Part shown: positions 3,275 to 22,431 of the stretch, piece after piece
Layout of the letters: each line of letters begins with the position of its first letter
How positions within the stretch are numbered: position 1 is the first letter of the stretch
From: a virus
IMG/VR virus record: IMGVR_UViG_3300049491_001064
Coordinates: 1 to 37,369 of that record
Reading direction: 5' to 3' (one strand)
DNA: 37,369 nt
Notes under the pieces: model-generated
The model's database searches: none
Told to the model about the DNA's origin: nothing
The model's input: only the letters and a program-made list of their open reading frames with translations
Program-made: the position numbers and the translations under genes

Positions 3275-3293
3275 GGATACTGGGCAGGATACT
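3275..3293 (+). repeat. Two GGATACT direct repeats, right arm of attP
   Basis: GGATACT at 3275-3281 and 3287-3293, again 12 bp apart and in the same orientation as the three left-arm copies. The last base touches the stop codon of the large virion gene. Together with 3043-3073 these bracket the tRNA core, at about 60-80 bp on this side and 100-130 bp on the other. Confidence 0.75.
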
Positions 3294-6200
3294 CACGGAA
3301 TCGTCGGCGCTGCCGCCGGCAACACATACACCCGCCGGCGTTTCATCTCCTGCCACGCGTGTCCCTGTTCCTCCGCCGGCAGTCGCACGATCGAGTTGCT
3401 CACGTATTGAGACCGCGCCTCGATGCCCATCGTCCGCGCGCGATGGATCACGTCATCGATGTAGGCGGCCGATTTCGCTTTCTGGACGATCTCCGGATAC
3501 CGCTCAATCATCTCCGCCGGCTTGCCGGGCAATAGAGTGAACCGGGGCAACTGCCGCGCGATCACATCAGTCGTCGGCTTTGGTGGTAGTTGGTCCGCAT
3601 AAGGCATCCACGGCGCCACCTTCCGGAGGGCACCGCTTTCACGCACGGTAGCCAGCACCGGGTTCGCTTCGTACACGGCATTGGCCATGTCGCTCGCGCC
3701 CTGGCTCTGCCCCGGGGGCACCACAGGGAACTGCCGCGGCACACCCAATGCCGGCTGGTAACCGCTCGCGGCGCCGACGGCAAAGCGCGCCGGCGGGCCC
3801 AGCGCTGGTGCGGTCCACGAGTTCACCAAGTCCCTCATCGAGGCGTCCAGCGCGGCTGCATTGTCAAGGCCCAAACGTTTGGACTCTACAGCGCCTCGCA
3901 CGCCCGAAACCCGCAGCGCGCGGCCGAAGCCCATCAGATCCAGCGCCGGTACCGTGAGCGGCCGGCCGGCCTCGTTGTCGCGGCCGGTGTCGATGCGCCC
4001 CAGGGGCGTGCCCGGCCGGCCCATCACGCCGCCGCCCTTCTTGTCCTTGGTCAGCACATAATTCAGCGCGCCGATGAGCACCGCCGAGCCCACCCATCGC
4101 GCCGCGATGGCCGCGCGCAACGTGGCCGCGGCCGCCGGCGTCGCTGCCTTCGCGCCCGGAGCCAGGAACAGGTTCCGCACGCCCAGCGTGTTGAAGGTCT
4201 TGCCCGCGGTCACAAATGGCCCCAAGCCCGTCTCGCGCAACGCATGCGTCAGCACCCCCTGCAGTCGCTTGTTGTATTGGCCGGCTTGGTTGACGAATTC
4301 CCGCCGCGCCGTCTCCGTGTTCACTACCAGGCCCCGCTCCGCCAGTCCCTGGAAGGTGTCATCGAGCACCAGCCGCGTCGTCTTATCCGCCCAATGAATC
4401 AGGCGCGAGAGCGGATTCCACGAGGCCCCATAGCTCCCGCGCATCGCGCCAATCTCCGCCAGCTGGCCCGTCTGCGCGCTGTGCTCGCCGAATCCCTTCG
4501 CCACCGCGCGCACGATGGCGGCCGGGATATCCGCCCGGCCAAAGGCACTCAGCAAAATGTCCCCCACGGGATTGCGAGCCCCATTCCCCGGCCGGGTGAA
4601 GAGCACCGTGGCCAAGTTGCTCACGTGCACTGTCGCATCCGTGAGGCCTGCCAGCGCCGCTTGGTTCAAGCCGCCCGTCAGCCGCCCGAGCGTCTCGCTG
4701 AATCGATTTCGGTAGAGGTTTGCCGCCAGCTCATATTCGCGCGCCAGGCTGCGCCGCACATAGATGTTCGCCGCCGCCGGCGCCATGCGCGTCGCGCCTC
4801 CTTCCGTCCGCGTCACCAGCACCGTGCGCCGGAGCGGGAATGGCACCGTCTCCTCCCCACCGATGGCCAGCGGCCGCGGGTCCGCCGGCGGTCCGATGTA
4901 AGCGTGCCCGCTCTCCACCAGGCGCGCGTCAAAGGCATTCTTGCTCGCGATCTCCAGCTGTCGGGCAAATGTGTTCTGCATGATCTCCCGGTAATCCGTC
5001 CCATAGAGCTCGCTCGCTCCCGTCGCGCGCCGGCCGAACGGGCTCTTGCGCCGGAACGTCGCCATGAGATTGGGCGCCACGCCTGCGATCACCCGCCGCG
5101 GCTTGCCCTCCATGTCCGGGCGCACCGCAAACAGATTGATGCGCGCCTGCGTCACCGATCCCCGCGTGGGCAATGGCAACAGATCATCGATGAGCATCGC
5201 CTGCCGGTACATCGGATCCACCACGCGCTCCCACGCTGCGCGATGGCGCGTTAATGCCTCCTGCACGCCCGGCCGCGCCGTGTAGGTCGCCAGGTCCGCT
5301 TCCGTATGGAATGGCGAGCCGGGCGCGCCCACCAGCGTGTGCACCTTGCCCGCGGCCTCGAGGTTCCCCTCCGCCGCGAATCCAGCGCGCACACTGCGCA
5401 GATTGTCCTCCGTCAGAAGTGCGCCGAATGCCTCCGGCTCCACATTGAGCCCGGCCAACACCTCATCCGCGAAAGCCTTCGCCGCATGCGGCGCCGCCAG
5501 GCTCGAGGAGGCATAGCGCACGCCCAGCTCGCCGGCGCGCCGATCCGCTCGCGTGGTACGCGGCATGGATTCCCCGGCCACACTGGCGATGGTCGCCCGC
5601 AGGTTGCCGCCCAGCTGCTGCAGGCCTGCCAACACCGATCGCGTGAGCGGCACAGGGCCCGCCGTGCTCAGCTCGCGCGCCGCATCCGCGGCCGCCTCGG
5701 CGCTCTGTACCGCGCGCAAGATCGGCCGCGCAGGCGGCAGGCCGGCGCCGGCGCCCAGGTTCAGCGAGCCCATGCCGGTGAATTCCCGTTGCGCCTCCTC
5801 CCAGATCCGGCGCAAGTGTGGCCGTATATCCGCGCCGTGTTCCGCCACCATCTTCTGCGACCAATCAGCGAATTTCCGCACGCCCCGCTCGAGCAGCGCC
5901 ACTCCCTTCACGACATAAGCCGCCAGCACATCCGGGCCCAGATGTGTGCCGCTTCCGCGCAACACCTGATCCGCCCACATCTCCAATTGCGTGCCGGCCA
6001 CCAGACCATGCTCGCCCCGGTGATAGATAATCTGCGAAAGCTGTTCCACCTTCCCATCGAGGTACGCCAGGTCCCGCACCATCGCCTGCGGGGGGTTGGA
6101 ATATTTCGAGGATTGCCGCGCCAGCGGCTTCGATTGCTCCAGCAATCCGTAGATGAGATCCCGTATCGCTTCGCTGGAGTCGGCACCATGCTCCATGATG

Positions 6201-8269
6201 GCGTCGATCTGCCCCTGCATGTATTTGAACTGCCTCAGCAGGCTCTTGTGCGAGGCCAGCGTCTCCCCGAAGAACGCCATGTTCCGCGCTACAATCGGTT
6301 CCTCCTCCGTCAGCCAGTCGAGTTTCGCTTGGAGTTCCGGCGGGCTCCCTCGGGGCGCGACAAGTCGTCGCGCAGGCCCTGAGGCAGGCTCGCCCCCCTC
6401 TCGCCCACCACCTGGCTTCCGTCCGGCATCTCCACGATCCAGCTCCCGTCCTTGAAGCGTTCCAGCTTCGGGCGCCGGTTCTGGCGTTTGGGGAAATAAC
6501 TCACCATGGCCGGACTCTACACCTGCAGGCCCTTCTCGCAAGCTCAACAAATCCCCGCCACCCAACAAATCTCCCTGCCCGATGTCGCCTTGTTTCCCAA
6601 TGAGCGGTTGCGCTGCACCTTCCTCCACCGCCCGGCGCTGCGCTGCAGCCGACCGTTGCGCCTCTTCCTGTGCCAGCCTGGCGTTCTGTTCTTGCACCGA
6701 TTCCGGCTTTGCCAATGCGAAGTCCTGCGTCGGCGCTGGCCAATCCTCCCGCGCTACCGGCTCTAATGTCCCCTTGTCGATGTGGATAAACTCCCGCCCG
6801 GGCTCGATCGTTTGGACACCGAATTTCGGCCCGTCCTTCACCACGATCCCCGTCAAGTTTTGGTCCTCGTCAAACTCCAATTTGCTCACCGTGAACTCGT
6901 GGTCCTGCACCTGGAATTTGTCGCCCTCGATGAGCTGGTCCACCGGCACCTGCTCCACGTTTCCCGCCTCCTTCCGCGGCCGTTCCCCCAGCAGCACGCG
7001 CTTCGTGAATTGCCTCTGTTGATTGCCCTCCGCCACGATGCTGCGCTCATAGCGCGCCCGCGCGCCGCGGAAATCTTTCCGGGCCTGCGCGGCCTGGTTG
7101 AGCATCTCTCCGAACTGATCCACCGTCACATCCGGATGCAGCAAGCCCTCATTCTGGAGCGCGTTCATCGCCTGGTCCGCGTGCGTCCGGGCGGATGCCG
7201 AGAATAAATTGCGCGCTGCACCGATAGCGCGCCAATCCGTGTTCGCCTCCCGAATCAGCTTGGGATTGATTTTGCCCACGTGCCCCTCGATGGCATCGAT
7301 GATGTCGAATGGGCGCTCCTCTGTAGTCCGCCGGGAAGGCGTCGCCGCCCTGGGGCGTTCCTCACGCTCCGCCGGCATTGCAGAAGCTGTTCCCTCATCC
7401 GGCGCTGCAGGCACCGGGCCGGTGATAGTTTCCGGGGGCGACGACCGTTCCACCGTGCCCGGCGGCCGTTCCGTTGTCAATCCGGGCCTCTCCACGATTT
7501 CAAATCCGTCTGCGTTGTACACTGCGGCTCCGGACAGCGCCGGCGCCACTTCGCGCACCATCGGTTCCGTTATCAGGTCCCCCACCCTCGGTCCCGGCGC
7601 CTCCTCGATGGCCCGCGCCAGCTTGCGCGCCAACGGCTCCAGCTCCAGATGCATCTCACGGTATCCGTGCGAGCCCGCCAGCCCTGCCATCGCCAGGTTG
7701 CCCAGTCCCTCCGTCAGGGCCTGTGCCTGGCCCGGTCTATCGCCGGCATACGCCGCCTCCCAATACTTCTGCCACGCGTCCGGCGCATGACTCGCCATGT
7801 CCGCAGCAAAAGCCGTGCTGGCCAACGCCCGCACAGCCCCAGGCGCCGCGCCCAGGCCCAACGTGGCGAGCCCCGCCGGCGACGTCATGAACTGCCCGGC
7901 GCCTGTGGCTACATTCTCCACCCCCTTCACTACGGCCGCGGGCGTGCGCAATGCCGGCACCTTCTCTCCGATGGCCTCCATCTGCAGCCCCAGGCTGAAC
8001 GGCCGGAGCGGAATCCCCTTCGTCAACAGCTCGAGCGGCGATTCCGAGACATGCTTATTTCCCGGGAGCTGATCCCCCCGCGGCGTATAAAGTCCACCTT
8101 CCCCTTCTCGTCCTGGATAGAACGGCGGCGCCCATTGCGTGGGGAACTCAGCCCTCGCCGGCGAGGGCGCGGCTATCGGCTCGACGATCTCGAAGCCATC
8201 CGCGTTACGCCGCCCAACTGCCGGCACCGCTTCCTCCACGATCTCAAGGCCGTCGGCATTGGTGGGCAT
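3293..8269 (-). CDS. Large internal virion / ejection protein (gp16-position)
   Basis: A 1658-aa protein, last gene of the leftward operon, in the position of T7 gp16 after gp14- and gp15-like genes. NADG[LF]EIV occurs three times near the N-terminus (residues 4-11, 22-29 and 252-259). Hydrophobic Ala/Gly-rich helices at about 110-160 and near the C-terminus (VGSAVLIGALNYVLTK) fit a protein that enters or crosses membranes during DNA ejection. Around residues 440-510 there is a small beta-rich segment (QLIEGDKFQVQDHEFTV) like those in large polyvalent phage proteins, and the C-terminal third resembles the LPD-type domains of that group. No transglycosylase motif is evident to me. The start at 8269 is 5 bp after the preceding stop. 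Confidence 0.8.
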   Translation of the reverse strand: MPTNADGLEIVEEAVPAVGRRNADGFEIVEPIAAPSPARAEFPTQWAPPFYPGREGEGGLYTPRGDQLPGNKHVSESPLELLTKGIPLRPFSLGLQMEAIGEKVPALRTPAAVVKGVENVATGAGQFMTSPAGLATLGLGAAPGAVRALASTAFAADMASHAPDAWQKYWEAAYAGDRPGQAQALTEGLGNLAMAGLAGSHGYREMHLELEPLARKLARAIEEAPGPRVGDLITEPMVREVAPALSGAAVYNADGFEIVERPGLTTERPPGTVERSSPPETITGPVPAAPDEGTASAMPAEREERPRAATPSRRTTEERPFDIIDAIEGHVGKINPKLIREANTDWRAIGAARNLFSASARTHADQAMNALQNEGLLHPDVTVDQFGEMLNQAAQARKDFRGARARYERSIVAEGNQQRQFTKRVLLGERPRKEAGNVEQVPVDQLIEGDKFQVQDHEFTVSKLEFDEDQNLTGIVVKDGPKFGVQTIEPGREFIHIDKGTLEPVAREDWPAPTQDFALAKPESVQEQNARLAQEEAQRSAAAQRRAVEEGAAQPLIGKQGDIGQGDLLGGGDLLSLREGPAGVESGHGELFPQTPEPAPEAGTLQGRELDRGDAGRKPGGGREGGEPASGPARRLVAPRGSPPELQAKLDWLTEEEPIVARNMAFFGETLASHKSLLRQFKYMQGQIDAIMEHGADSSEAIRDLIYGLLEQSKPLARQSSKYSNPPQAMVRDLAYLDGKVEQLSQIIYHRGEHGLVAGTQLEMWADQVLRGSGTHLGPDVLAAYVVKGVALLERGVRKFADWSQKMVAEHGADIRPHLRRIWEEAQREFTGMGSLNLGAGAGLPPARPILRAVQSAEAAADAARELSTAGPVPLTRSVLAGLQQLGGNLRATIASVAGESMPRTTRADRRAGELGVRYASSSLAAPHAAKAFADEVLAGLNVEPEAFGALLTEDNLRSVRAGFAAEGNLEAAGKVHTLVGAPGSPFHTEADLATYTARPGVQEALTRHRAAWERVVDPMYRQAMLIDDLLPLPTRGSVTQARINLFAVRPDMEGKPRRVIAGVAPNLMATFRRKSPFGRRATGASELYGTDYREIMQNTFARQLEIASKNAFDARLVESGHAYIGPPADPRPLAIGGEETVPFPLRRTVLVTRTEGGATRMAPAAANIYVRRSLAREYELAANLYRNRFSETLGRLTGGLNQAALAGLTDATVHVSNLATVLFTRPGNGARNPVGDILLSAFGRADIPAAIVRAVAKGFGEHSAQTGQLAEIGAMRGSYGASWNPLSRLIHWADKTTRLVLDDTFQGLAERGLVVNTETARREFVNQAGQYNKRLQGVLTHALRETGLGPFVTAGKTFNTLGVRNLFLAPGAKAATPAAAATLRAAIAARWVGSAVLIGALNYVLTKDKKGGGVMGRPGTPLGRIDTGRDNEAGRPLTVPALDLMGFGRALRVSGVRGAVESKRLGLDNAAALDASMRDLVNSWTAPALGPPARFAVGAASGYQPALGVPRQFPVVPPGQSQGASDMANAVYEANPVLATVRESGALRKVAPWMPYADQLPPKPTTDVIARQLPRFTLLPGKPAEMIERYPEIVQKAKSAAYIDDVIHRARTMGIEARSQYVSNSIVRLPAEEQGHAWQEMKRRRVYVLPAAAPTIP

Positions 8270-8273: not shown

Positions 8274-9290
8274 TCACTGGGCCAACTTATAACCCTTGCC
8301 GCTGAACTCGCCCATGCGTGTGCGCGGCACTCGCACCTTGTTCCCCGCCTTATCGAACATCAACACATCCGCGCTGCCTCTGCCGGATTGAAATCGTTGC
8401 AGGAAGGCATCCACCCGCTTCTCCCGTTCCTCGCTGCTCAATCCCAGCGCCGGCCCGCTGTCGAGGATGGCCTTTACGCCGGCGGCGGCCGCCACCTTAT
8501 CGATGTCGCTCATTCCCTCGTGGAACGGCAGGTGTTGCCAATGCGGTTTCAACGCGGTGCCCTTGTTGTAATAGCTCACCCCATCCGACCCCGTGAACAC
8601 CGCTGGCTGCTCCTGGCCGGCTTCCGGCATCATTACGCTGCTATTCGGGCCCGTTACTACCGCGCGCTGGCCCGGCAACACCGTTCCCTCCGGCGTCTTG
8701 ATTGGTATAGCCACGCCGAACTGGTCCGTCTTGAAGAACGCCTCCCGTCCACCACGGGCGCCCGGCGGCATCGCTGCCCGCAGCACGTCATCCGCGGCCG
8801 TCAACGGCACCTGGTACCCCGTCCGGGCCGCGCTGGCTGCCAACTGCGGGAGCGCGACCTGTTCCTGCCCATCCGGCAATGCGAATTGGTTGAACTCTTT
8901 TTCCGGGATATCGTACGGTAGCGCTCCCGGGGGAGCGTAACGTGCCACGTCTCCGAGGAACGCTGGCTCTCTTGCCGCGTTCTCCCGCGTCGCCCGCTTG
9001 CCCGCGATCACCTCCGCCATCTCGTCCGCCTGCAGCTTCTGTCGTTTGAACCCCTGCGCTTGGATCATTCCCACCATCGCGCTGGCCTTTTCGAGTGGGC
9101 TCTGCAAGTGCCACACGTCCGCCGGCATCGGCAGCTGATCCTCCGGGAGCGCCTTGAAGAACGCATCGGCCGCCTTGCCCGCCTGCAGCGCCCGCTTCCG
9201 CGTGTCCGAGGCCTCCTCCGCCTGGCGGCCCAGATCCGCGAGCATGCTGCCTGCGATGAACCCACTCTGGTTTTGAACAAACGGGATCAT
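8274..9290 (-). CDS. Internal virion protein, gp15-position
   Basis: A 338-aa protein from ATG 9290, which overlaps the upstream stop as TGATG and is preceded by GGAGGAGGG, one of the clearer ribosome sites in the window. The longer in-frame start at 9362 would extend into the previous gene and is unlikely. Mostly helical and charged, with an Ala/Arg-rich N-terminal third and a C-terminal segment (DVLMFDKAGNKVRVPRT) that resembles a small beta domain. No family is recognised. Position between a short Gly/Ala/Gln-rich protein and a very large protein matches the gp14-gp15-gp16 ejection set of T7-like phages. Confidence 0.75.
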   Translation of the reverse strand: MIPFVQNQSGFIAGSMLADLGRQAEEASDTRKRALQAGKAADAFFKALPEDQLPMPADVWHLQSPLEKASAMVGMIQAQGFKRQKLQADEMAEVIAGKRATRENAAREPAFLGDVARYAPPGALPYDIPEKEFNQFALPDGQEQVALPQLAASAARTGYQVPLTAADDVLRAAMPPGARGGREAFFKTDQFGVAIPIKTPEGTVLPGQRAVVTGPNSSVMMPEAGQEQPAVFTGSDGVSYYNKGTALKPHWQHLPFHEGMSDIDKVAAAAGVKAILDSGPALGLSSEEREKRVDAFLQRFQSGRGSADVLMFDKAGNKVRVPRTRMGEFSGKGYKLAQ

Positions 9291-10237
9291 CAGTAAAACC
9301 CTCCTCCCGAGGTCCAATCCGGCAGATATCCGCCCCCACCACCCGCGCCGGGGGTCGTCCACGGATTATTTTGCGCGTTCGAATATCGGAACGCTCCCTG
9401 CGCCAGCCCCGCACCTGCGGCCGCCAAATTGTTCAACCCGCTGTTGTAGTTCGAGAGATTCGCCGCATAGGCGCTCTGTTGCGATTGCGCCACATCCGGG
9501 TTCCACGGCGTGCTGCGCACCGGCGGCCCGCCCTGCACCTGCGTCGCTGCCCCCAGCAATCGGATCGAATCACTCACCGGTTCCCCGCGGAACGCCCGGT
9601 CCGCGCCCAGCACGCCCGAGGCATACGCCCCGCGCGCCATCCGCCGGCTATCCCGGCCGCGATCCAGCCCGATCAACTCCGCCAACGTATCCCGCGTCCC
9701 GTAACCCTGCCCCCTCGAGGCCTGGCTCCCGCGAATCATCTGCTGCAGATCATGTTCATCCAGTGGGTTATCCCCGCGCCCCACCAGGTTGCGCGCATCC
9801 GCCACCAGCTGATCATTCAGCGCGAATCCGCTCGGATCCCCGCTCCGCTGCAGGTTTTGCAGCTCCGGCTGTGCCTGGCGCAGCAGCTCGATCATCCCCG
9901 GCGATTTCGGCGCCGGCAAATCCCGGTAACGCGTCTCCCAATGCGTCGGCTCCCCGCCGCGTTTGGGGATCTGCACCCGATAGGGCACCTGGATCGTCCC
10001 GCCCGGATTCCCGAAGAGCGCCATCTGCTGCAGCTGCTGGTTTAAGCCCCCGTACCGCAGCGCATCCTCATAATCCTGCGCGAAAGTCCGGCCCCCGTAC
10101 AGGTCCCGCCCTTGAGCGGTGGAGAGCGCCAGCGTCTTGGGCCCGGGCGCACCGCCGCCGCCGCCCTTGCCCGATTGGCTGGCCGCGTAAGCCGTCCCCG
10201 CGGCCGCCACCGCTGCTGCTGCAATTGCTGCGCCCAT
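9290..10237 (-). CDS. Internal virion protein, gp14-position
   Basis: A 315-aa protein with a hydrophobic Ala-rich N-terminus (MGAAIAAAAVAAAGTAYAAS), a Gly tract and a Gln/Asn/Ala-rich body ending in a Gly-rich tail. The low-complexity, membrane-prone N-terminus is typical of phage ejection proteins that form a conduit with two partners. It is followed by the gp15- and gp16-position genes with a TGATG overlap, and starts 5 bp after the citrate-synthase-like gene. The function is inferred from gene order and composition. Confidence 0.7.
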   Translation of the reverse strand: MGAAIAAAAVAAAGTAYAASQSGKGGGGGAPGPKTLALSTAQGRDLYGGRTFAQDYEDALRYGGLNQQLQQMALFGNPGGTIQVPYRVQIPKRGGEPTHWETRYRDLPAPKSPGMIELLRQAQPELQNLQRSGDPSGFALNDQLVADARNLVGRGDNPLDEHDLQQMIRGSQASRGQGYGTRDTLAELIGLDRGRDSRRMARGAYASGVLGADRAFRGEPVSDSIRLLGAATQVQGGPPVRSTPWNPDVAQSQQSAYAANLSNYNSGLNNLAAAGAGLAQGAFRYSNAQNNPWTTPGAGGGGGYLPDWTSGGGFY

Positions 10238-10241: not shown

Positions 10242-10829
10242 TTAGTAAATTGAGGACATCATAAGAGATTTTGCCCACGCATCCAGGCGCCCCGAGATGA
10301 AGAGCCACGCCGCCGCCCGCGCCGGAATCCCCACCGCGATCGCCGCCGCCGCCGTGAACGCCGAGGCATTCGGCAAGAGCACCAGCCCCTTCCGCTTGTT
10401 TAACATCATCTGCGACACCGCGTCCAGACGCGCCGCCAGCGGCTTGAAGTGTTCCCGCAAGCACGCGTCCACCCCGGTCCAGATCGGGTCCGGCGTCCCG
10501 CGGTGGAAGGAGTTTCCCCAGCCCGGCACGAACTCCCCGCGCTCGAGCATCTGCCACGCCTCCAGCTCCGGGCGCTCGCGCTCCAACAGCTCCACCGTCT
10601 GTTCCAGCGGCGCGTGCATCCCGCCCAGCGTCAGGAGCGCCCCGGCAATGGCGCCCGTAAAACTCCCGCTGCCCGCGTATGCGCTGCGGAGCATCACCGA
10701 GCTAATGTTGTCGCGCCGCGCGCTGTCCGCGTGCGCCTCGTGCACCCGGAAGAGCAGCACCGCCTCCGGCTCCGTGAGCGATTCTGTGCGCCACCAGGGC
10801 GTCCACGGGGTCAATGGCACTGCCGGCAT
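10242..10829 (-). CDS. Citrate-synthase-fold protein, degenerate active site
   Basis: A 195-aa protein from ATG 10829 (TGATG overlap with the sulfotransferase-like gene; the upstream in-frame ATG lies inside that gene). It follows the citrate synthase / citryl-CoA lyase pattern in order: VHEAHADSA (30-36, family DHELNAS), GAIAGALLTLGGMHAPLEQ (59-77, family …GPLHGGANE) with His72 kept, VPGWGNSFHRGTPDP (101-115, family PGFGHRVYKxxDPR), LLPNASAFTAAAA (151-162, family NVDFYSG) and WLFISGRLDAWAK (175-187, family FAIxRxxGWxAH) with Arg181. Two catalytic residues differ: the GFGH His is Asn106 and the NVDF Asp is Ser156. Full citrate synthases are about 400 aa, so only the C-terminal part of the fold remains. 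Probably a structural or binding protein rather than an enzyme. Confidence 0.7.
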   Translation of the reverse strand: MPAVPLTPWTPWWRTESLTEPEAVLLFRVHEAHADSARRDNISSVMLRSAYAGSGSFTGAIAGALLTLGGMHAPLEQTVELLERERPELEAWQMLERGEFVPGWGNSFHRGTPDPIWTGVDACLREHFKPLAARLDAVSQMMLNKRKGLVLLPNASAFTAAAAIAVGIPARAAAWLFISGRLDAWAKSLMMSSIY

Positions 10830-11440
10830 CACGCCACCACCTCCTGGGCCCGTTCCACCAGCCGCATCATCCGCGCCGGATCCACCGCCACCCGTTCCGG
10901 CATGATCCGCATCCGAAAATCCATCAACATCCGGTTCCGCACCTCCGGATATTCCGCCCCCGGCAACAGATGCTCCCACGCCTGGCGCAGGCCCGCTTCC
11001 GTGCTCAGCGCCTCCATCGGCACTGTGAGCACATCCGGCGCGTGATCAAGGAATTCCTGCTGCACCTGCTGCAAGCGGTCGAACACCGCCACCGTTTCCG
11101 GCCACGTTGGCGATCGCATCCCCTGGTAGGGCGTCCGTCCAAACGCCTGGAAGAAACACGCCCGCGCCTCTTCGAACGGCCGGCGCACGTGCAGCCAGCG
11201 GGCCCCGGGGAAGAGAGCCATCGTCCGCCGCCACACCATCAAGAGCCCCGAGTCGCTCGTGCCCACCGTGCGGGCCCCCGTGGCGGCCGCCAGCGCCTCG
11301 AAATGCGCCGGCAATTCCGCCACGTCCTCCAAATGTTTCAGCGCGTCATGCTCCACGAAGGCCTCGCCCCAGGTGAACAGATTCGCCAGCCACGCCGTGC
11401 GGCTCCGCGGCAACCCCGTGATGAAAATCGGTGCGTTCAT
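10829..11440 (-). CDS. Sulfotransferase-like protein
   Basis: A 203-aa protein from ATG 11440, which overlaps the upstream stop as ATGA. It opens with a beta strand and loop, IFITGLPRSRTAWLANLF, the 5'-phosphosulfate-binding loop of PAPS-dependent sulfotransferases (GLPRSRT at residues 9-15). A later segment, FPGARWLHVRRPFEEARACF, matches the region around the 3'-phosphate-binding Arg (family xIxxxRDPxxxxxS). It is shorter than typical bacterial sulfotransferases (250-300 aa). Known phage sulfotransferase-like proteins have unclear targets; here a surface sugar or a virion protein is possible. It is coupled by TGATG to the citrate-synthase-like gene. Confidence 0.75.
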   Translation of the reverse strand: MNAPIFITGLPRSRTAWLANLFTWGEAFVEHDALKHLEDVAELPAHFEALAAATGARTVGTSDSGLLMVWRRTMALFPGARWLHVRRPFEEARACFFQAFGRTPYQGMRSPTWPETVAVFDRLQQVQQEFLDHAPDVLTVPMEALSTEAGLRQAWEHLLPGAEYPEVRNRMLMDFRMRIMPERVAVDPARMMRLVERAQEVVA

Positions 11441-11814
11441 AGACTGGCCGGCATCCCCGGGAACCACACCGCCACCAGCTCCACCTTCCAGGAGGTCACC
11501 GTCATCGTCGAGATGCCGTCCGCCGACTTCGATTCCACGCCCAGGCTCGAGCCGTAAATGAATCCTGTCACCAGGCCCGGCTTCGCGCTGATGTAGAAAT
11601 GCGCCGTCGCCGAGCCATGCCCGTACAAGTGATGCACATCCCCGGGCAACCATCCGCTATCCGCCACCTGGCAAGTCAACCGCAGGAACATCAAGTCCGG
11701 CGGCCGCGACATCGCATGGTTGATCTTGAGCGTCTGATTGAATGCCGAGAGCAGTACCGGCTCCGAGCACAGGATTCCCCCCGTCTGTTCCAGTGCATAT
11801 AACGCGGTATTCAT
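11437..11814 (-). CDS. Hypothetical structural protein
   Basis: A 125-aa protein with a beta-rich middle and C-terminal half (TAHFYISAKPGLVTGFIYGSS) and no signal peptide or membrane helix. No family is recognised. The start lies 1 bp after the upstream stop and the end overlaps the sulfotransferase-like gene by ATGA, so it belongs to the tail module transcript. A small tail or fibre-base component is the most economical guess. Confidence 0.65.
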   Translation of the reverse strand: MNTALYALEQTGGILCSEPVLLSAFNQTLKINHAMSRPPDLMFLRLTCQVADSGWLPGDVHHLYGHGSATAHFYISAKPGLVTGFIYGSSLGVESKSADGISTMTVTSWKVELVAVWFPGMPASL

Positions 11815-11815
11815 A

Positions 11816-12232
11816 TCACAGGTCGGTCACCTCTGCCGTGATCGTGAAGGTGTCGCCTGCGGCCGCCGCCGAAAACCCAACGTGCAGTAGATAGGTGTTG
11901 CTCGGCAGTTTGATCCCCACCAGTTCCGGCACCGGAATGCTGATGCCCACCACAGTCGCGCTGGGCGTCACCGCCGCGCCCAGGTTGACCTCATGCACCA
12001 GGTAATAAGAGGTCCCGTCGAAGATATAGAACCGGCAGATGTTGTTGGCCGTGCTTGCCCCCGTCCCATTCTGCACCACGCGCACCCGCTGGATGATCGA
12101 GCCCGCCGCCACCCCCGCAATCACCGCCACCGTATTGTTGGCGCCCGCCAACGTCTTCACGCTATTGGCCGAGCCGCCGCTGTTCACGCCCGCCACCCGG
12201 GACGTCACGAAAAAGACTGGAGATGCACTCAT
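11816..12232 (-). CDS. Hypothetical beta-rich structural protein
   Basis: A 138-aa protein rich in Val, Ala, Ser, Thr and Gly with repeated beta-strand patterns (NTVAVIAGVAAGSIIQRVRV; TVVGISIPVPELVGIKL), without charged clusters or membrane segments. This composition is usual for jelly-roll-like decoration or fibre proteins, and the ending (TFTITAEVTDL) resembles small phage head/tail proteins. Located after the tail-tube-B-like gene. No specific family recognised. Confidence 0.65.
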   Translation of the reverse strand: MSASPVFFVTSRVAGVNSGGSANSVKTLAGANNTVAVIAGVAAGSIIQRVRVVQNGTGASTANNICRFYIFDGTSYYLVHEVNLGAAVTPSATVVGISIPVPELVGIKLPSNTYLLHVGFSAAAAGDTFTITAEVTDL

Positions 12233-12247: not shown

Positions 12248-12520
12248 TTAGACAAAATGCGCCCACGTAAAAATCCTGTTGAACGTGTCATTGGCCGATA
12301 CCGGCAACGCCTCCGGCCCCCACTTCCCGGTCGCCACGCGATACACGAGGAACTGCCCCTCCGCCGGGGCCGAGGTCGAAAAATCCGTTAAATTCGTTGT
12401 GGCGCCCGTCACCGTCCACGCCCCGCCGGCATCCCCCTGGTTCAGCTTGCCGGCGTCCACCACGTCCGTGTCCTGCCACGTCGTCCCCGGCACAAACACC
12501 ACATTGAATTGCGCGGCCAT
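12248..12520 (-). CDS. Small structural protein after tail tube B
   Basis: A 90-aa protein whose ATG overlaps the stop of the tail-tube-B-like gene as TGATG. It contains a short beta-rich segment (GQFLVYRVATGKWGPEAL) like the attachment repeats seen in phage fibre and baseplate-linker proteins. Family not recognised; an adaptor between tube and fibre is one possibility. Confidence 0.65.
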   Translation of the reverse strand: MAAQFNVVFVPGTTWQDTDVVDAGKLNQGDAGGAWTVTGATTNLTDFSTSAPAEGQFLVYRVATGKWGPEALPVSANDTFNRIFTWAHFV

Positions 12521-14850
12521 CAGGTATCCCTCCTCAATGCGTTGCCCTCGCCCGTCCCCTCGTAGCCCAGCGCCAACACCCGCGCGCGGCCCTGCGTGCC
12601 CGAGATGCGCACGCGCGGCGAACGCCCGCGGCCGCTGATGCTCAGGTCGTGCCGCCGTTCCTGGTGCAGGCCCAGCTGCAGGCCATCCCCGAGGTTAAAT
12701 CCCCTTTCGGTATCCGGCCGCACCGTGCTCAGCGTCAGGCTGTAATCCTCCCGGAACGGCTCCGGAAAATCGTCATTCACATTCGTCGCATCCCACGCCG
12801 CCCGATCCCATGGCTTCGTGTACCGCGTACGACTGCGCGTCTCCCCCTGCACCAGCGAGCTCTCCTCATTGGCTCCATCCTGTACCAGCGCGATGTCATA
12901 GGAGGGGTTCCACGTCTCCAGCACGGCCACCAGCGTGCGCGCCAGCTTATCCCTCATCCGATCCGGCGTCGTCAGGCCTCGGGAGGTGTAGCTCCACTCA
13001 ATTTCCTGCCGGTCCACCTGCTCGATGAAACCCCACGAGCTCACGTTCACATCCGGCACCACGCCGTTCGTTGAATAAAAGCGCACGCCCGTGCTTGCTG
13101 TCCCCGTGACCATCGAGAGCGGCAGCGGCGCCGCCCGCGTGTTTGGCGCGCTCCATTGGATCGGGCTCGAGATCGCGTAACCCGCCACCGCATCACCAAA
13201 CAGGCTCCGCGCCGCCCCGTCGATATTGGTCGGCGTAGGGCTCGAGCGCCAGTGTGTCGCGTCATTGTTCGTCAGGGCAGTATCCACCTGCACCGAAAGG
13301 CCGCTGTTCACCAGCACAGAATAAAACGTCACCGGCGCTGAGAGCAGCGTCAGATCCATGTACGGCACTGGCCGCGCATCCTGGTAGCCGTGCTCATAGA
13401 GACACGTCCATCCATCCTCGCCGGCGAAACACAAGCGATCGATCCCCAGCCAGTTACTCAGGAAGAATTGTTTGGGCTCGATGCCGTCTGCCTGGTCATA
13501 TCCCTGCCACACACCGCCCCCCTCCACGTCTGAGAGCTGCGTGTCCAACACCAGCACCGCCGTGTTTACCCCCTTGTAAACCCGGCGCAGGCTGATGCCG
13601 TTGGTGATATTGGGGTTAAAACCGGTCACCGTTACAAACGTCGCCTGCGCCACGAAATCAATCGTGAACCCCGGCATCGGGCTGGATCCAGTCGTTACCG
13701 GCACCTGCGCCGTCCCATTCGTCAGATATCGCGTGTCCGTCCCGAACACCAGCCGATACGTCGCCCCGGGCACCGTAACATATTTGATCGGCGGATCTGA
13801 GATACGCGTGGCCGATTCCGGGTCCAACCGTTCCGCGTCATCGAAAGGCACCGCGAAATACACCTTGTTATCCCAGAACCCCGCGCAAATCTTGCTGCGA
13901 AACCGGCCATTCACCCGCTTGAGCAATCCATCGATGTTCTGTCCCGGCATCGGCCGCGTCGCCCCCTGTCCTGTCTGCACCTCATTGAACATCGTGATCG
14001 TGAGCGAAGCCGGCCCATCCTGGCTCCACCACATCAGGTCCGTGCCGATATCCACCACGCTCCGGGCCGCCACACACCCGTAACGGCGCGTCACCCGGAT
14101 CGGGATCGTGTCCGCCAGTGTCCCCACCACATTCACCAGCCGCCAGATCGAGCGCTCCTTCAGCGCCACGATGGAGGTCTCGTTGAACAGCGCGATCGCC
14201 ACCAGCGTATCCGGGATCCCGTCGGACACCCGGTACTGGTTGGCCACCGCGTAGGCCGTATGATCCAGCGCGTCGCTGGCCCACAGCTCATCCTGCCCCG
14301 TCAGGATCCAGAGTCGCAAGCCCACTGCCAGCGCCTGGCGCCCGCGCGGGATCCTCGAGAGCCCCAGGCCGGGCGTCGGATCCGGCACCACTGTGAACCC
14401 CAGGTCGATGCTGGACATCTGCAGCGGGTCCGCATTGTCTCCCCTCATTAGGATCACCGTGTCATCCAACTGCTCGAACGAGCAGTCCTCCGTCACCGTC
14501 ACGCCGGCGGGCAACGGGAGCGCCTGCGGAAAATTATTCGCCAGCGAGGCGTAGACCTGGCCGTCGGCGGCGATGAGATTCCAAATCCTGTCGTCCGCAT
14601 CCAGGAAGCGTCCCACCCCGTAAATCGTCTCATACTTCCCGAGCCCCAGAGAGGTGGTCTTGTTCAACCACGTCAAATGTGCCGTCCCCAGGCGTGGCTC
14701 CGGCACCCCCTGGCGAAAGCGCATGTTGACGGCCGCCGATCCGAAGCCCGGCGGAATCTGCGCGTGATGTTCGCGCACGTGCACGCCCACCACCCGCTCC
14801 TGTCCGTCGACCAGCGGCGCATTCCGTCCAGATGTTTGGACCCCATTCAT
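12520..14850 (-). CDS. Tail tubular protein B-like (gp12-like)
   Basis: A 776-aa protein from ATG 14850, overlapping the lipoprotein gene stop as ATGA; the longer frame to 15105 lies inside that gene. It opens with MNGVQTSGRNAPLVDGQE, has a DNMRF-type segment (VNMRFRQGVPEPRLG) and a body of beta-propeller-like repeats (IWNLIAADGQVYASL; RLWILTGQDELWASD; DLMWWSQDGPASLTI), as expected for the T7 gp12 nozzle family; T7 gp12 is 794 aa. The role would be the distal tail tube. It lies downstream of the tube-A-like gene but separated by ~6 kb of exported and lysis-like genes, unlike T7 where the two are adjacent. Confidence 0.7.
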   Translation of the reverse strand: MNGVQTSGRNAPLVDGQERVVGVHVREHHAQIPPGFGSAAVNMRFRQGVPEPRLGTAHLTWLNKTTSLGLGKYETIYGVGRFLDADDRIWNLIAADGQVYASLANNFPQALPLPAGVTVTEDCSFEQLDDTVILMRGDNADPLQMSSIDLGFTVVPDPTPGLGLSRIPRGRQALAVGLRLWILTGQDELWASDALDHTAYAVANQYRVSDGIPDTLVAIALFNETSIVALKERSIWRLVNVVGTLADTIPIRVTRRYGCVAARSVVDIGTDLMWWSQDGPASLTITMFNEVQTGQGATRPMPGQNIDGLLKRVNGRFRSKICAGFWDNKVYFAVPFDDAERLDPESATRISDPPIKYVTVPGATYRLVFGTDTRYLTNGTAQVPVTTGSSPMPGFTIDFVAQATFVTVTGFNPNITNGISLRRVYKGVNTAVLVLDTQLSDVEGGGVWQGYDQADGIEPKQFFLSNWLGIDRLCFAGEDGWTCLYEHGYQDARPVPYMDLTLLSAPVTFYSVLVNSGLSVQVDTALTNNDATHWRSSPTPTNIDGAARSLFGDAVAGYAISSPIQWSAPNTRAAPLPLSMVTGTASTGVRFYSTNGVVPDVNVSSWGFIEQVDRQEIEWSYTSRGLTTPDRMRDKLARTLVAVLETWNPSYDIALVQDGANEESSLVQGETRSRTRYTKPWDRAAWDATNVNDDFPEPFREDYSLTLSTVRPDTERGFNLGDGLQLGLHQERRHDLSISGRGRSPRVRISGTQGRARVLALGYEGTGEGNALRRDT

Positions 14851-15185
14851 TTGATTTTGCCGAGGATCGAATCCAAGGCCCGCAACGCCTCCACCACGTT
14901 CGTGCCCCCGCCGGATTCCTCGAGGCCCTGCGTCCCCGCCGACATCGTTTTGCCAATGGAGGCCCGCTGTCGGTCCAGCGAGCTGGTGGCCGGCCACACC
15001 ACAAACGACGTCATCTTGAGCGTCCGTTCCGTCACCACCCCGTTGGTGCCGATTGTCCGTTCCGTGAGCACCGGGCGATTGACGGCGCACCCCGTGAGCA
15101 GGCACAGGGTGAACGCCGCCAGAGCTGCGGCAAAGGGGTGCGCCGCGGACTTATGTTCCAGTGGGGTGGGCTTGGGGGGATTCAT
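14847..15185 (-). CDS. Lipoprotein, possible outer spanin
   Basis: A 112-aa protein with a signal peptide ending in a lipobox (LCLLTGC, Cys at residue 34) and a mature part of about 79 residues. It follows the holin-like gene by 7 bp and overlaps the tail-tube-B gene by ATGA. Outer-membrane lipoprotein plus a nearby single-TM coiled-coil protein (15728-15952) is the make-up of a two-component spanin that fuses inner and outer membranes at lysis. The mature part is not strongly Pro-rich, so a generic phage lipoprotein is possible. Confidence 0.65.
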   Translation of the reverse strand: MNPPKPTPLEHKSAAHPFAAALAAFTLCLLTGCAVNRPVLTERTIGTNGVVTERTLKMTSFVVWPATSSLDRQRASIGKTMSAGTQGLEESGGGTNVVEALRALDSILGKIK

Positions 15186-18493: not shown

Positions 18494-20361
18494 ACGGTTG
18501 TGTTGTTCGTGTTCCAACATTTCCAGAGCATGAGCCCGTTGGAATTCCAATAGGCAAAAGAACCCAGCGCCAGCACTGGCGGCGTCGTCACCGTGTTCGT
18601 CGGCCAATACATCACCCCGTTGGTATTCACGTTCCACAGGTTGGGCCGATTGGTTGTGCCCAGCCGCATGATGTCATTCACCACGTTATCCGCCGCCACG
18701 TGGAAGAAGGCCTGCGGCGAATTGGTCCCGAGTCCCGCCTTGCCGTCCTCCTGCACGCGCAGCAGCGAGATGGCATTGGTTTGATTCGCTGCATCCCTTT
18801 CGATCGAAAAGAAATTGGAGGTCTGATTATTGTCCGCGTCGATGATGATGTGGGCTCCGCCTCCAGAATTGATCGTGAGGCGCCCCGAATCCCGTTCATA
18901 CGTGATGGTCGCCGTGTTCGCGTTCAACGCGTCGAACAGGATTTGATGCGCCAGGGATGAAGACGAATTGAGCCGCGTGAACCCCAGCGACGTCGAAAAG
19001 TTCGTTCGCCCTAGGAGCAGGTTGCCAAACAGGTCCAGCATGTAAGTGCCCGTCAACCGCGGGCCAACCGAAAGAAAGCCGTCCTTGCTCACCGCCACGA
19101 TGTTGCTGCCGCCGTAATCCGTGATCTCCATCAGATTCGACACCTGTTGGAAGCCGGCATAAACCCGGAACGGCACCCGATTGCCCAGCGCCGTCCCCAC
19201 CAACAAATTCTGTTTCCGCGAGAACCCGCCATCATGCCAGATCAAATCCGCCAGGTAAGACACCCCCATGCCGTTCAAGTGAATGCAATCATTGGTCAAC
19301 ACCCATTGGCGCCGCACCAGATCATTCGTCGTCCCGAAAATCTGCGTGTCAAAATAGCTGTAACCCACTGCCTGCACGGAATTCTGCACGAACGTATTGC
19401 CCAGGTCATACCTCGATGAATTATCCGTCACGTTGTTCACGCCAATGAACGTCCCATCTGTATTGCTCGGCGCCATCCCCGCCATCGCCAACGTCGTCAG
19501 AAAGACCGGCAGGGCGTTCGTGAGCAACGATGGAGCGTCCAACGCGTGCCACAGGAATTCTGTCAACCCCAGGCTGGCGAATACCGGCACCGTGATGTTC
19601 GTGGCCACATTGGTCACATCCGCCAGCGTCCCGCCAAAGCTCCACATCTGCGCGGGACTGATGCCCCCCTTGTTACTCGCCCACATGCCACCGCCGATCA
19701 CCACGTTTGTGCCCGTCACATTCACCACCTTCAGCTTCCACTCGCCCAGGTTCGTCGCGAAGTTGACGACCACACCGGTGGGGCTGGCCGTCAGCGCCGA
19801 AAGAGTTGCTGTCACGTCACTGAACGCCCCGCCGTTGGTCGCCACCTGGACCTTGTAAGTGCCGCCGTTGGTCGTGTGAGCCATTGCGATCCGGAACGTG
19901 TCGGCCACCATGAAGCGTCCCGCAGAATCGAAAGTCACATCCGCGCTGGCACCGCCCACCCCCATGGTAAAATGCGCCGCGAACCAGTTCGTGTCCGGCA
20001 GTGGGATCGTCGTGAATCCCGAGTGCGTATACGTCAAGGGCGCAAACAGCGTATTCGTCAACACCGTCATGTAACCGCCATTGAACCCCAGCGCCCGTCC
20101 GAAATCCGAGCTCCATGCCTCCACCACATCATCCCCGAGCGAATCGCCAAATCCGCCGATGCGCCACGGCAGCACGTTGGTGTAGAGAATCGAAAACCGA
20201 TTCTTGTAAGGCGTCGCGTTCAGCGCCGCCGTCACCACGTTTGTGGCGATTACGGATGCAGCGCCAGTCGTCACCGATGGCACCGTTCCCGCCGCGGCGA
20301 AAGCCCGCAGCGCCGGGCAGGCGACGAATGCCACCAACAATAATGTCCGAAGAAGATTCAA
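18475..20361 (-). CDS. Exported SGNH/GDSL esterase with fibre-like C-terminus
   Basis: A 628-aa protein. It probably starts at TTG 20361, which overlaps the preceding stop as TTGA. A signal peptide (LLRTLLLVAFVACPALRAFA) is followed by block I of SGNH hydrolases, GGFGDSLGDD (GDSL at 72-75), and block V, NDCIHLNG, with Asp358 and His361. The N-terminal ~370 residues are therefore likely a hydrolase, perhaps removing O-acetyl groups from a surface sugar. From about 480 on the protein carries the fibre-type motif GLGTNSPQAFFHVAADN seen before chaperone domains in tail fibres, but no peptidase S74 dyad is visible. Very Asn/Thr-rich. Confidence 0.75.
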   Translation of the reverse strand: MNLLRTLLLVAFVACPALRAFAAAGTVPSVTTGAASVIATNVVTAALNATPYKNRFSILYTNVLPWRIGGFGDSLGDDVVEAWSSDFGRALGFNGGYMTVLTNTLFAPLTYTHSGFTTIPLPDTNWFAAHFTMGVGGASADVTFDSAGRFMVADTFRIAMAHTTNGGTYKVQVATNGGAFSDVTATLSALTASPTGVVVNFATNLGEWKLKVVNVTGTNVVIGGGMWASNKGGISPAQMWSFGGTLADVTNVATNITVPVFASLGLTEFLWHALDAPSLLTNALPVFLTTLAMAGMAPSNTDGTFIGVNNVTDNSSRYDLGNTFVQNSVQAVGYSYFDTQIFGTTNDLVRRQWVLTNDCIHLNGMGVSYLADLIWHDGGFSRKQNLLVGTALGNRVPFRVYAGFQQVSNLMEITDYGGSNIVAVSKDGFLSVGPRLTGTYMLDLFGNLLLGRTNFSTSLGFTRLNSSSSLAHQILFDALNANTATITYERDSGRLTINSGGGAHIIIDADNNQTSNFFSIERDAANQTNAISLLRVQEDGKAGLGTNSPQAFFHVAADNVVNDIMRLGTTNRPNLWNVNTNGVMYWPTNTVTTPPVLALGSFAYWNSNGLMLWKCWNTNNTTVCVPTP

Positions 20362-20804
20362 TTGGGTTTCCGGTATGTCACGCTTACCTGCAGGATCGTG
20401 GTCGCATTGGAGAGCCCTCGATCCGTCGTGCTATTGGCCACGAGCAATCCGTTGTTGAATTGGATGCCCGCCAGTCCGAAATCGTAATAACCGGTCGACC
20501 CTGCCGGCACTTTGATGGGCGCGACCGTCGGCACCGCGTTCGTGGCCGGGAATCCGTTTGTTCCCTGGTTGAATGCCATCAGCCAGATGTCCCCCGCACT
20601 CGAGTTCTGCGCCACGATCGAGAACACCTTGAGCGCATTGGTGCTCACGATGCACACATTGGTGGGCGTCACCGTCGAGAAATACCGGTCCGATCCCGTC
20701 TCCTTGTTCTGTCCAAATGCCTGGAAGCATGGAAGGCAGAGGAGGAGAGGACACAGAACGAGGGCCCCCAAATTCGTGTTAATTCGTGAAATGCGTGTCT
20801 TCAT
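20358..20804 (-). CDS. Exported hypothetical protein
   Basis: A 148-aa protein with a signal peptide (Arg-rich start, core LVLCPLLLCLPCFQ, cleavage about A-F-G before Gln). The mature ~115 residues are beta-rich (NVCIVSTNALKVFSIVAQN; ILQVSVTY) and resemble a small jelly-roll structural protein. The DNA for residues 6-11 contains two AATTCGTG copies (20771-20788). Located 6 bp after the tail-tube-A gene. Family unknown. Confidence 0.65.
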   Translation of the reverse strand: MKTRISRINTNLGALVLCPLLLCLPCFQAFGQNKETGSDRYFSTVTPTNVCIVSTNALKVFSIVAQNSSAGDIWLMAFNQGTNGFPATNAVPTVAPIKVPAGSTGYYDFGLAGIQFNNGLLVANSTTDRGLSNATTILQVSVTYRKPN

Positions 20805-20810
20805 AATTGT

Positions 20811-21830
20811 TCAGATTTTCACCGGCAGTCTCCGGCTCTGCCGTTGCCTGCGGTTTACCAGCACAAAAGCGTCACGCGCGTAGCCATTGGCCCGGGCCTC
20901 CTCCACCGCTGCCGATTCCAGTTCCCCCGAACCCCGCAGCATCTCCGAGTAGGCGCCCTGCGCCACGGCATCCCGCAGCACCCAGGGGAACTCCACTCGC
21001 TCCCAGTAAGCGGCCACCGTCACCGCTTGATTGATGTTCCCCGCCTGGAGCGACTTGAAAAAATCCCCCTCCGTGCTGTCATACACTTGGTCATCCACCC
21101 CGTAGGTCGAGGTCGCGTCCCACGCGTCGCCCGTCCACGTCGGCGGCCGCGTCAGGAACTCCAGCCACACCGAGCCCTGGCCGCCCGTCACGTAAATTTT
21201 GTCCGCGAGGTCAAACTCCAGGTCACAAGCCGCCCCGAAATACACCTGCGGATCCCGGTCCCACACAGCGCGCACCGTCCCGATCTCCGTCTGACCAGTC
21301 TGTTCGTAATCGATTGAGCGCCGGAATGCCGTCAGGATGCCGAACTTCGTGGAATCGAGCGTGGCCCCGCCCGAGTGCGCCGTGTGGCATTGGTAAAAGC
21401 GATCGTCATCCGGGTTGCGCACAATCGTCCCCACGTCGAAAGCGCCGGCGGCATAATCGTTGCCGGTATAGCTGGATTGCGATTCCGCCCAATACGCCGA
21501 ATTTTCCACCCCGCTGTCCGTGAACGGAATATTGCCCGTATTGCCGGCGCGCAAGCTTTGGGCGTACTTCTGGGTCCGCACGTGGTACACCTCCACTGCG
21601 GCCGTGGCCGTCGGCGCCCCATACGTGGTGCCCACTGCCCACGCCGGCCGAAACGTGCGCTCCTCCGTCAGTTTCCATTCCGGCCACCAGAATTCCTCCC
21701 AGAGCTGTTGGGCCCAGGTATTGATGAACACCCGCGCCGTGCTTTCGTCGTCCGCCGAAAAAGCCCCCTGCGAGCCGAGCCACCGGGCCTCGACCTTCGC
21801 CAGCAAATCGCTATAGGAGATGGCGCGCAT
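20811..21830 (-). CDS. Tail tubular protein A-like, with carbohydrate-binding-like inserts
   Basis: A 339-aa protein whose N-terminal ~55 residues (LLAKVEARWLGSQG … INTWAQQLWEEFWW) and C-terminal ~80 (VLRDAVAQGAYSEMLRGSGE) match the helical frame of T7 gp11-type head-tail connectors; T7 gp11 is 196 aa. The extra length is made of Trp/Tyr-rich modules such as GNTGNIPFTDSGVENSAYWAE and DAWDATSTYGVDDQVYDST … QAGNINQAVTVAAYWERV, which resemble CBM5/12 carbohydrate-binding modules. It would seal portal to tail tube, with inserts displayed outward. Position before tube-B-like protein supports the call. Confidence 0.7.
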   Translation of the reverse strand: MRAISYSDLLAKVEARWLGSQGAFSADDESTARVFINTWAQQLWEEFWWPEWKLTEERTFRPAWAVGTTYGAPTATAAVEVYHVRTQKYAQSLRAGNTGNIPFTDSGVENSAYWAESQSSYTGNDYAAGAFDVGTIVRNPDDDRFYQCHTAHSGGATLDSTKFGILTAFRRSIDYEQTGQTEIGTVRAVWDRDPQVYFGAACDLEFDLADKIYVTGGQGSVWLEFLTRPPTWTGDAWDATSTYGVDDQVYDSTEGDFFKSLQAGNINQAVTVAAYWERVEFPWVLRDAVAQGAYSEMLRGSGELESAAVEEARANGYARDAFVLVNRRQRQSRRLPVKI

Positions 21831-21870: not shown

Positions 21871-22431
21871 CTACGGCTGGGAAGCCGTGATGGTGAGATT
21901 GGAAATCCCCAGCCCGTTCGTCATCCCCTCGAACCGAAACGCGTAGCCATTGCCCAGAACCGTCCCCGGAATGTTCGTGAACACGCTGTAGCCGTTTGTC
22001 GTGCCCGATTCATTCAGGTTCATCAGCCCCAGGTTGGGGAACACCTGGAATCCGTCGCCGAAGTTCGTGCCATCCGGCGAGATCGTGAAACGAAACAACG
22101 CGTTGGAGCCCGCCGTGCCGTGCGTGTTGTATTTCACGAGCAATCCGAGCCCCTGGCTGCCGGCGCGCAGCACCACCCCCGTGGTATTCACCGCCGAGCC
22201 CAGGCCGCCGAAGATGCCACTCGTGTTATTGTTCGTCACACCGGCCGCGATAAGGCCCGTGCCGCAGAACACCGGCACTGTCACCGGCTTCCGTGGCGCG
22301 TCCGCCCCACTGCGCACATTCACCTGCGCCTGTGTGGGCAACGCCAGGAGCGCCAGCGCCAGGACCAGCAGCATTTCAGATTTCAGCTTTCTGCTCTCTG
22401 CTTTGGGGAGGAGTGTCATTTCCGTTTTCAT
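21871..22431 (-). CDS. Exported hypothetical protein upstream of tail tube A
   Basis: A 186-aa protein from ATG 22431, an ATGA overlap with the previous stop; the extension to 22668 is in another gene. It has a basic N-region, core MLLVLALALLALP and cleavage T-Q-A before Gln. The mature part is a beta-rich ~150-aa domain (GLGLLVKYNTHGTAGSNALFR; NGYAFRFEGMTNGLGISNLT) with the Asn/Gly/Thr composition of the other exported proteins. The DNA for residues 9-20 is an 8-nt-type repeat (22372-22406). No family recognised. Confidence 0.65.
   Translation of the reverse strand: MKTEMTLLPKAESRKLKSEMLLVLALALLALPTQAQVNVRSGADAPRKPVTVPVFCGTGLIAAGVTNNNTSGIFGGLGSAVNTTGVVLRAGSQGLGLLVKYNTHGTAGSNALFRFTISPDGTNFGDGFQVFPNLGLMNLNESGTTNGYSVFTNIPGTVLGNGYAFRFEGMTNGLGISNLTITASQP
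22372..22406. repeat. 8/7-nt-period repeat (family B with CTTTCTG units) in signal-peptide region
   Basis: ATTTCAGATTTCAGCTTTCT followed by two CTG-CTTT units. On the leftward strand it encodes the charged N-region (KAESRKLKSE) just before the hydrophobic core of the exported protein at 21871-22431. Related TTTCAGC units are found at 23406, 23958, 25063 and 33973. Confidence 0.65.

Follow-up and report, generated by a model that had tools for sequence, protein, structure and literature searches.

A citrate-synthase-fold protein paired with a sulfotransferase-like protein beside putative ejection genes in uncultured phages

Why would a phage keep a gene for a protein with the fold of a core metabolic enzyme among its structural genes? 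The question was raised by a reading frame in the window, by which we mean the whole stretch of viral DNA that was analysed (37,369 bases, from a record classed as linear). The window also encodes a DnaB-like helicase and a phage major head protein, and no tRNA was found in it. A sequence-only reading of the window had proposed that the frame encodes a citrate-synthase-fold protein with a broken active site, which was put to a new use as a virion or assembly part or as a decoy for host citrate synthase. The features of the locus are listed in Table 1. Elsewhere in the window, the gene at 34460-35425 (minus strand) showed a strong match to phrog_2045, which was found in 159 phage records, some of them annotated as Gp37Gp68 family. 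The top phage-record match to the major head protein was phage C75C1 (L004), in which annotated gamma-glutamyl cyclotransferase and amidoligase genes (20149-21045 and 21898-22830) lie close together.

Table 1. Features around the gene for the citrate-synthase-fold protein, in the direction of transcription
Feature	Position	Strand	Basis
Tail/head-closure-like structural gene	12520..15105	-	Upstream of the cassette (the ST and CS-like genes); weak phrog matches
Three small genes	11437-11814, 11816-12232, 12248-12520	-	Between the tail gene and the cassette
Sulfotransferase-like (ST) P-loop protein, 203 aa	10829..11440	-	Pfam, model, conserved residues
Citrate-synthase/citryl-CoA-lyase-fold (CS-like) protein, 195 aa	10242..10829	-	Reading frame (ATG at 10829, stop at 10242), Pfam, AlphaFold, Foldseek, profile against PDB
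gp14-like putative ejection protein, 315 aa, hydrophobic Ala/Gly-rich N terminus	9290..10237	-	Directly downstream of the CS-like gene; homology in relatives
Gene in gp15 position, 362 aa	8274..9362	-	Position only
Giant protein, 1658 aa, gp16 position	3293..8269	-	Homology to relatives

Sequence and predicted structure placed the CS-like protein in the same family. The protein contains, in sequence order, the motifs GGMHAPLE (residues 69 to 76), PGWGNSF (102 to 108), PNASAF (153 to 158), and ISGRLDAW, with Asn106 and Ser156 exactly where the sequence-only reading had put them. PF00285 was the sole Pfam family matched (E value, 7e-6), with a score of 25.7 bits that fell 1.3 bits short of the curated cut-off of 27; several relatives (L026, L124, L128, L138, L140, L141, and L167) exceeded the cut-off. 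A phmmer search of the PDB with the window protein identified citrate synthase 6s6f (E value, 2.4e-5) and citryl-CoA lyase 6hxp (E value, 0.016), and a profile that included the relatives matched 33 distinct PDB sequences at E <= 1e-3 (best, 1.3e-12), all of which were citrate/methylcitrate synthases or citryl-CoA lyase. The AlphaFold model, for which 19 family rows served as input, had nine helices, a pLDDT of 91.8, and a pTM of 0.88. In a Foldseek search, 43 PDB chains matched this model at E <= 1e-3, and those among the matches listed were only citrate/methylcitrate synthases or citryl-CoA lyase modules. The BFVD viral structure library held no protein similar to the model (best E value, 0.97). 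The homology of the window protein to citrate synthase, as judged from these sequence matches, exceeds chance, and the protein belongs by both fold and sequence homology to the citrate synthase superfamily (PF00285). The proposed fold was therefore upheld by the agreement between the structural and profile searches.

The PF00285 match spans profile positions 160 to 341 of 357, and a match that starts at position 160 leaves the window protein without a complete N-terminal large-domain part of citrate synthase. The ranking obtained with VIA-align was headed by citryl-CoA lyase 6hxp (Z 18.4, rmsd 3.3, 191 aligned residues), followed by the human ATP citrate lyase module 6hxl (Z 17.7, rmsd 3.2, 192 aligned residues), and the citrate synthases among the matches listed had Z values of 13 to 16. 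Because citryl-CoA lyase headed the ranking, the CS-like protein is a compact lyase-type core and not half of a broken synthase, and it is best read as a phage-specific member of its superfamily. Thus, the earlier view that the N-terminal half of the fold is missing was correct relative to full citrate synthase, but not relative to the citryl-CoA lyase core, which was matched end to end.

The first relative (L026, which is one and the same contig as L142) came from a motif-based DNA scan and six-frame search, and its protein was 33% identical to that of the window. The two-sequence alignment led to 19 viral contigs with a CS-like protein, a larger alignment to one additional contig (L145), a pattern in which Asn or His was allowed to five more (L146, L151, L152, L154, and L158), and a sulfotransferase-anchored scan to another two (L167 and L190). 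Beyond the window, the total was 27 viral contigs and 21 distinct proteins. The carriers are a group of uncultured short-tailed-type phages. When CS-like family members were compared to 50,697 phage records via tblastn, no relative was found; the sole matches in one such search were prpC genes in two "Acinetobacter phage MD-2021a" records, which were taken for host sequence and set aside. No CS-like copy was detected in bacterial genome contigs with narrow peptide patterns, and a search of genome contigs with the family alignment, which covers only copies with [IVQ]PGWGNSF, yielded 17 pattern stretches and 0 relatives. When one protein at a time (the CS-like protein, the major capsid protein, or the sulfotransferase) was used to scan viral and genome contigs, there was no yield. 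In the literature, full-length gltA is reported from viral scaffolds in an excerpt of PMC8066274, and giant viruses with citrate synthase genes are reported in one of PMC8857278. Among the matches listed, the excerpted texts described no ejection operon with a phage protein of citrate-synthase fold, and the excerpts of PMC3765740, PMC11256456, PMC13299392, and PMC10386132 held nothing bearing on the CS-like protein. What is new here, as far as these excerpts go, is the conserved phage setting of a superfamily that is itself known; no description of this combination was found among the matches listed.

Next to the fold, the sequence-only reading had stressed the active site, which we compared across 22 distinct CS-like proteins (that of the window and 21 relatives). 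Positions 72, 106, and 181 were read as the equivalents of His274, His320, and Arg401, which we take to be residues with roles in the citrate synthase active site. The PGxG loop of citrate synthases contacts CoA. In all 22 proteins, His72 (the first catalytic His), the G103-W104-G105 loop (GWG), Phe108, Asn154, and Arg181 were invariant; His72, the GWG loop, Asn154, and Arg181 make up a conserved cleft sequence. At position 106, the window protein and 18 others had Asn (19 of 22), and Gly, Ser, and His each occurred once; this Asn count is biased because PGWGNSF was the search pattern for most members. Position 156, the equivalent of Asp375, was occupied by Ser in 14 proteins (including that of the window), by Ala in 6, by Gly in 2, and by Asp in none. 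In an excerpt of PMC5830745, Asp375 is described as the base in citrate synthase. Since the catalytic Asp was never present, the CS-like protein is not expected to carry out canonical Claisen or citryl-CoA chemistry, and citryl-CoA cleavage is predicted to be unlikely.

Five of the seven pairs tested had dN/dS values between 0.062 and 0.151, which points to purifying selection on the CS-like gene, and the remaining two were saturated. The invariant positions and the low dN/dS values indicated that the site is conserved but different, rather than decaying. In other words, the active site is broken in the sense that canonical catalysis appears to be lost, but not in the sense of decay. Replacement of the second catalytic His by Asn, which had been part of the same claim, is common but not universal. 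A pattern that allowed Asn or His returned Asn in 22 of 22 stretches, and the sulfotransferase-anchored scan, which is free of CS motifs, returned one member with His and one with Ser at position 106. We rejected Asn106 as the defining change because Gly, Ser, and His are also seen there. The His member (L167, 6803-7450) is divergent, retains the second catalytic His but not the Asp, and is possibly a less derived form. In the CS-like gene of one relative (L139), an in-frame TGA interrupts the HGP motif at 4790-4792 and is either a sequencing error or the mark of an inactive copy.

The gene immediately upstream encodes the ST protein and ends in a 1-nt overlap, in which the last base of its stop codon is the first base of the CS-like start codon (TGATG). 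The ST start used here is that used by the relatives; the window reading frame itself extends to 11653. The ST protein matched Pfam Sulfotransfer_3 with an E value of 1.2e-4, which falls short of the cut-off, and the match of its profile to PDB sulfotransferases was weak (E value, 0.0026). The model of the ST protein (pLDDT, 85) was nearest to tyrosylprotein sulfotransferases (TPST2 3ap3; Z 13.4, rmsd 3.1, 167 residues), with small kinases a close second (Z about 12). Residues P11, R12, T15, W17, H31, and W155 were invariant across 17 rows, and the P-loop PRSxT and a later Arg were kept. Judged by its fold and PAPS-loop motif, the partner in the window is a putative PAPS sulfotransferase, for which sulfate transfer is only predicted. 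A sulfotransferase-like neighbour had also been named in the sequence-only reading, and both the Pfam match and the modelled fold confirmed it.

That reading had not included the near-constant pairing or fusion of the two genes, nor the exchange of one partner for another in the same place. Among the 25 contigs to which the CS-like protein had led, an ST gene was adjacent to or fused with the CS-like gene in 22 (16 of the 19 contigs in the first set, plus L145, L146, L151, L152, L154, and L158). Three arrangements were observed: ST followed by CS, CS followed by ST (L128, L134, L146, L152, and L154), and a fusion in one reading frame (L124 to L127; four contigs, two distinct proteins). A tree of the CS-like proteins, which leaves out the broken L139 copy, indicated at least 4 changes of arrangement, with 6 of its 16 inner branches weakly supported. 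As for the three contigs with no ST gene nearby, L140 has a gene for a GNAT acetyltransferase in its place, L141 has a gene for a 311-aa protein in its place, and L142 ends just past the CS-like gene. Divergence of the two proteins was correlated across 16 genomes (r = 0.87), but any pair of genes from the same genome should show such a correlation, and it was given no weight as evidence.

In the window, a tail/closure-like gene is followed by three small genes, the ST and CS-like genes, and then the genes for the 315-, 362-, and 1658-aa proteins. The tail/closure-like product matched phrog_578 (head closure Hc3; 5.9e-4) and phrog_511 (8e-4), both weakly, and has homologues in L129 and L169; L140 and L146 likewise have a phrog_511 ("internal virion protein") gene upstream of their cassette. 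The last of the small genes to be transcribed (11437-11814) overlaps the ST start with its end (ATGA), and the product of the first (12248-12520) is weakly tail-like. Downstream, the 315-aa protein had no family match of its own, and it matched the product of the gene after ST in L169 (8.9e-13) and that of the gene after CS in L167 (3.6e-6). The gene directly after the cassette belonged to phrog_598, "DNA ejection," in L135 (1.1e-38), L138 (8.7e-35), and L154 (2.6e-31). No family matches were obtained for the 362-aa protein. The giant protein had no Pfam match and was homologous to a 1629-aa protein of L134 (1284 bits) and to the products of reading frames in the same place in L166 and L169. 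Ejection-type genes downstream of the CS-like gene, which had been proposed earlier, are thus confirmed by homology in relatives. Since the location in a structural module recurs in relatives, a virion, assembly, or ejection-related role is favoured, which agrees with the first of the two uses suggested in the sequence-only reading.

The layout resembles that of T7, in which the order is gp12, gp13, gp14, gp15, and gp16; the gp14-gp15-gp16 operon of podoviruses is described in an excerpt of a review (PMC8954989). Because the layout before the gp14/gp15/gp16-type genes is shared, the ST and CS-like genes occupy the T7 gene-13 position, and the CS-like gene lies in a gp13-type place between tail-tube genes and ejection genes. 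T7 gp13 is named a probable scaffold protein in Pfam. According to an excerpt of PMC6775973, the position of a roseophage GNAT could make it the counterpart of T7 gp13, and a role in morphogenesis is suggested in that context. The CS-like protein showed no homology to gp13 (PF11090), as only PF00285 was matched, and the GNAT neighbours of CS-like proteins gave no alignment with, and had no sequence similarity to, T7 gp13.

A scan with five ST sequences identified 61 loci, 52 of which were distinct. A CS-like gene was found in 9 of the 61, and the frequent occurrence of ST without it (52 of 61) indicated that the CS-like protein is accessory. An Asp/Asn beta-hydroxylase-like partner was present in 13 of the 61 loci, and Pfam PF05118 (Asp_Arg_Hydrox) was above the cut-off in all three such partners tested. 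The gene for this 2-oxoglutarate oxygenase-like protein lies directly after ST in L194, L196, L197, L200, L202, L203, L206, L207, L208, L209, L211, L213, and L218, and its product is a second recurrent ST partner, ahead of ejection genes. Of the 52 loci that lack CS, 13 had homologues of the ejection genes downstream of ST. A hydrophobic, Ala/Gly-rich start was seen in the gene after ST in 33 of 43 distinct loci, compared to 93 of 505 background reading frames, and its p-value is indicative only, because the sequence window and threshold of this test were chosen post hoc, after a first, stricter criterion had given 10 of 43 (background, 5%). The test leaves out 9 of the 52 distinct loci, which have no called gene within 250 nt. 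In the 10 of 43 genes that remained, there was no gp14-like start, and some ST genes are in other contexts. A GNAT acetyltransferase gene was beside the CS-like gene in two contigs, and it overlaps the start of the CS-like gene in both (L146, 5348-5821, minus strand; L140, 2897-3367, plus strand). The two GNATs are homologous, and L146 has GNAT, CS, and ST in a row. In L169 (5929-7065) and L173 (5923-6990), an ST-like domain is fused to another C-terminal domain of ~150 aa that has no Pfam match; L169 has tail, ejection, and giant genes in common with the window. Based on the ST-anchored loci, ST recurs in the slot, in some cases alone, and the CS-like protein, GNAT, and hydroxylase are its companions.

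What might the pair do? Our preference, which is tentative and held at somewhat less than an even chance, is that the CS/ST pair is a cofactor-dependent module for the chemical modification or maturation of the ejection proteins encoded next to it. The pair would be made late, together with the virion proteins, and would bind 3'-phosphoadenosine cofactors, PAPS in the case of ST and CoA or acyl-CoA in the case of the CS-like part, as read from the folds and from residue roles in citrate synthases and sulfotransferases. It would then modify or mature the neighbouring ejection proteins or act during their assembly. Other group-transfer enzymes (Asp/Asn beta-hydroxylase and GNAT acetyltransferase) are encoded in the same slot, and group-transfer families such as these often act on proteins. 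It is these companions, together with the conserved CS cleft and ST loop, that led us to favour modification over a scaffold or host metabolism. That the 3'-phosphoadenosine moiety common to CoA and PAPS is meaningful is speculation. We also consider it doubtful, but worth stating, that short-tailed phages have in their ejection-gene operon a swappable protein-modification cassette (ST plus a CS-fold protein, hydroxylase, or acetyltransferase) that chemically matures injected ejection proteins, with the CS fold as a non-Claisen CoA-site subunit.

A non-enzymatic assembly factor or virion component would explain the gene position as well as modification does. The enzyme folds would then serve the ejection core as scaffolds or chaperones, a role also suggested for T7 gp13, and all that the cleft would do is bind a ligand or peptide. 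The Pfam name of T7 gp13, the roseophage GNAT in the gp13 place (excerpt of PMC6775973), and the loss of the catalytic Asp in 22 of 22 proteins are consistent with this role, but a pure scaffold would not need the invariant cleft residues or the P-loop, Arg, and His of ST, and we regard it as somewhat unlikely. The lost Asp and the presence of the compact core only both argue against an auxiliary metabolic or host-takeover enzyme that acts on a host small molecule (CoA, acyl-CoA, or PAPS) and is merely located in a late operon. Although the folds are those of small-molecule enzymes, and excerpts report gltA in viral scaffolds (PMC8066274) and citrate synthase in giant viruses (PMC8857278), ejection or other structural genes adjoin CS in every contig with an assignable neighbour, and no bacterial-genome copy was detected with narrow peptide patterns; such an enzyme seems improbable. 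The decoy suggested in the sequence-only reading, which would form mixed oligomers with host citrate synthase, has the common fold in its favour, but we found no support for it: the best match was a lyase core and not citrate synthase, and the near-constant link to the sulfotransferase would be left unexplained. Moreover, the protein lacks the N-terminal part with which citrate synthase completes its dimer interface, and a decoy is very improbable. Hardly credible is a functionless host citrate synthase that was captured recently and is now eroding. The lost catalytic residues and the in-frame stop in L139 (1 of 22 relatives) would fit erosion, but dN/dS values of 0.06 to 0.15, the same invariant positions in 22 divergent proteins, and conserved synteny led us to reject it for the CS-like family.

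If modification by the CS/ST pair is correct, phages have taken over the fold of a core metabolic enzyme to build or chemically finish their DNA-injection machine, and virion ejection proteins may bear modifications that nobody has sought. Because several group-transfer folds that are unrelated to one another converge on the gene-13 position, its long-unclear role in T7-like phages could then also be tested in many phages.

The locus shares parts with several known systems. Like tyrosylprotein and other PAPS sulfotransferases, ST has the fold, the P-loop PRSxT, and the later Arg; unlike them, it is shorter, kinases score close to it, and its activity is only predicted. A relative of ST, the phrog_10855 "hydrolase" of Pseudomonas siphophages, is encoded in the replication region of these cultured phages, with no annotated CS-like gene nearby. 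T7 gene 13 and the roseophage GNAT gene (SIO1 pc40) share the operon position of the CS/ST pair ahead of gp14-gp15-gp16, as far as the excerpts describe it, but their products are unrelated to the CS-like protein. The homology to citrate and 2-methylcitrate synthases (PF00285; 6s6f, 3tqg, and 3o8j) extends over their C-terminal part (profile E value, 1.3e-12), whereas the N-terminal domain part and the catalytic Asp are absent from the CS-like protein. Citryl-CoA lyase 6hxp and the ATP citrate lyase module 6hxl match its fold over the whole length, and the His and GxG loop positions of citryl-CoA lyase correspond to its own. Compared to citryl-CoA lyase (about 256 aa), the CS-like protein is smaller at 195 aa, has no catalytic Asp, has the second His replaced in 21 of 22 members, and is encoded in a phage operon.
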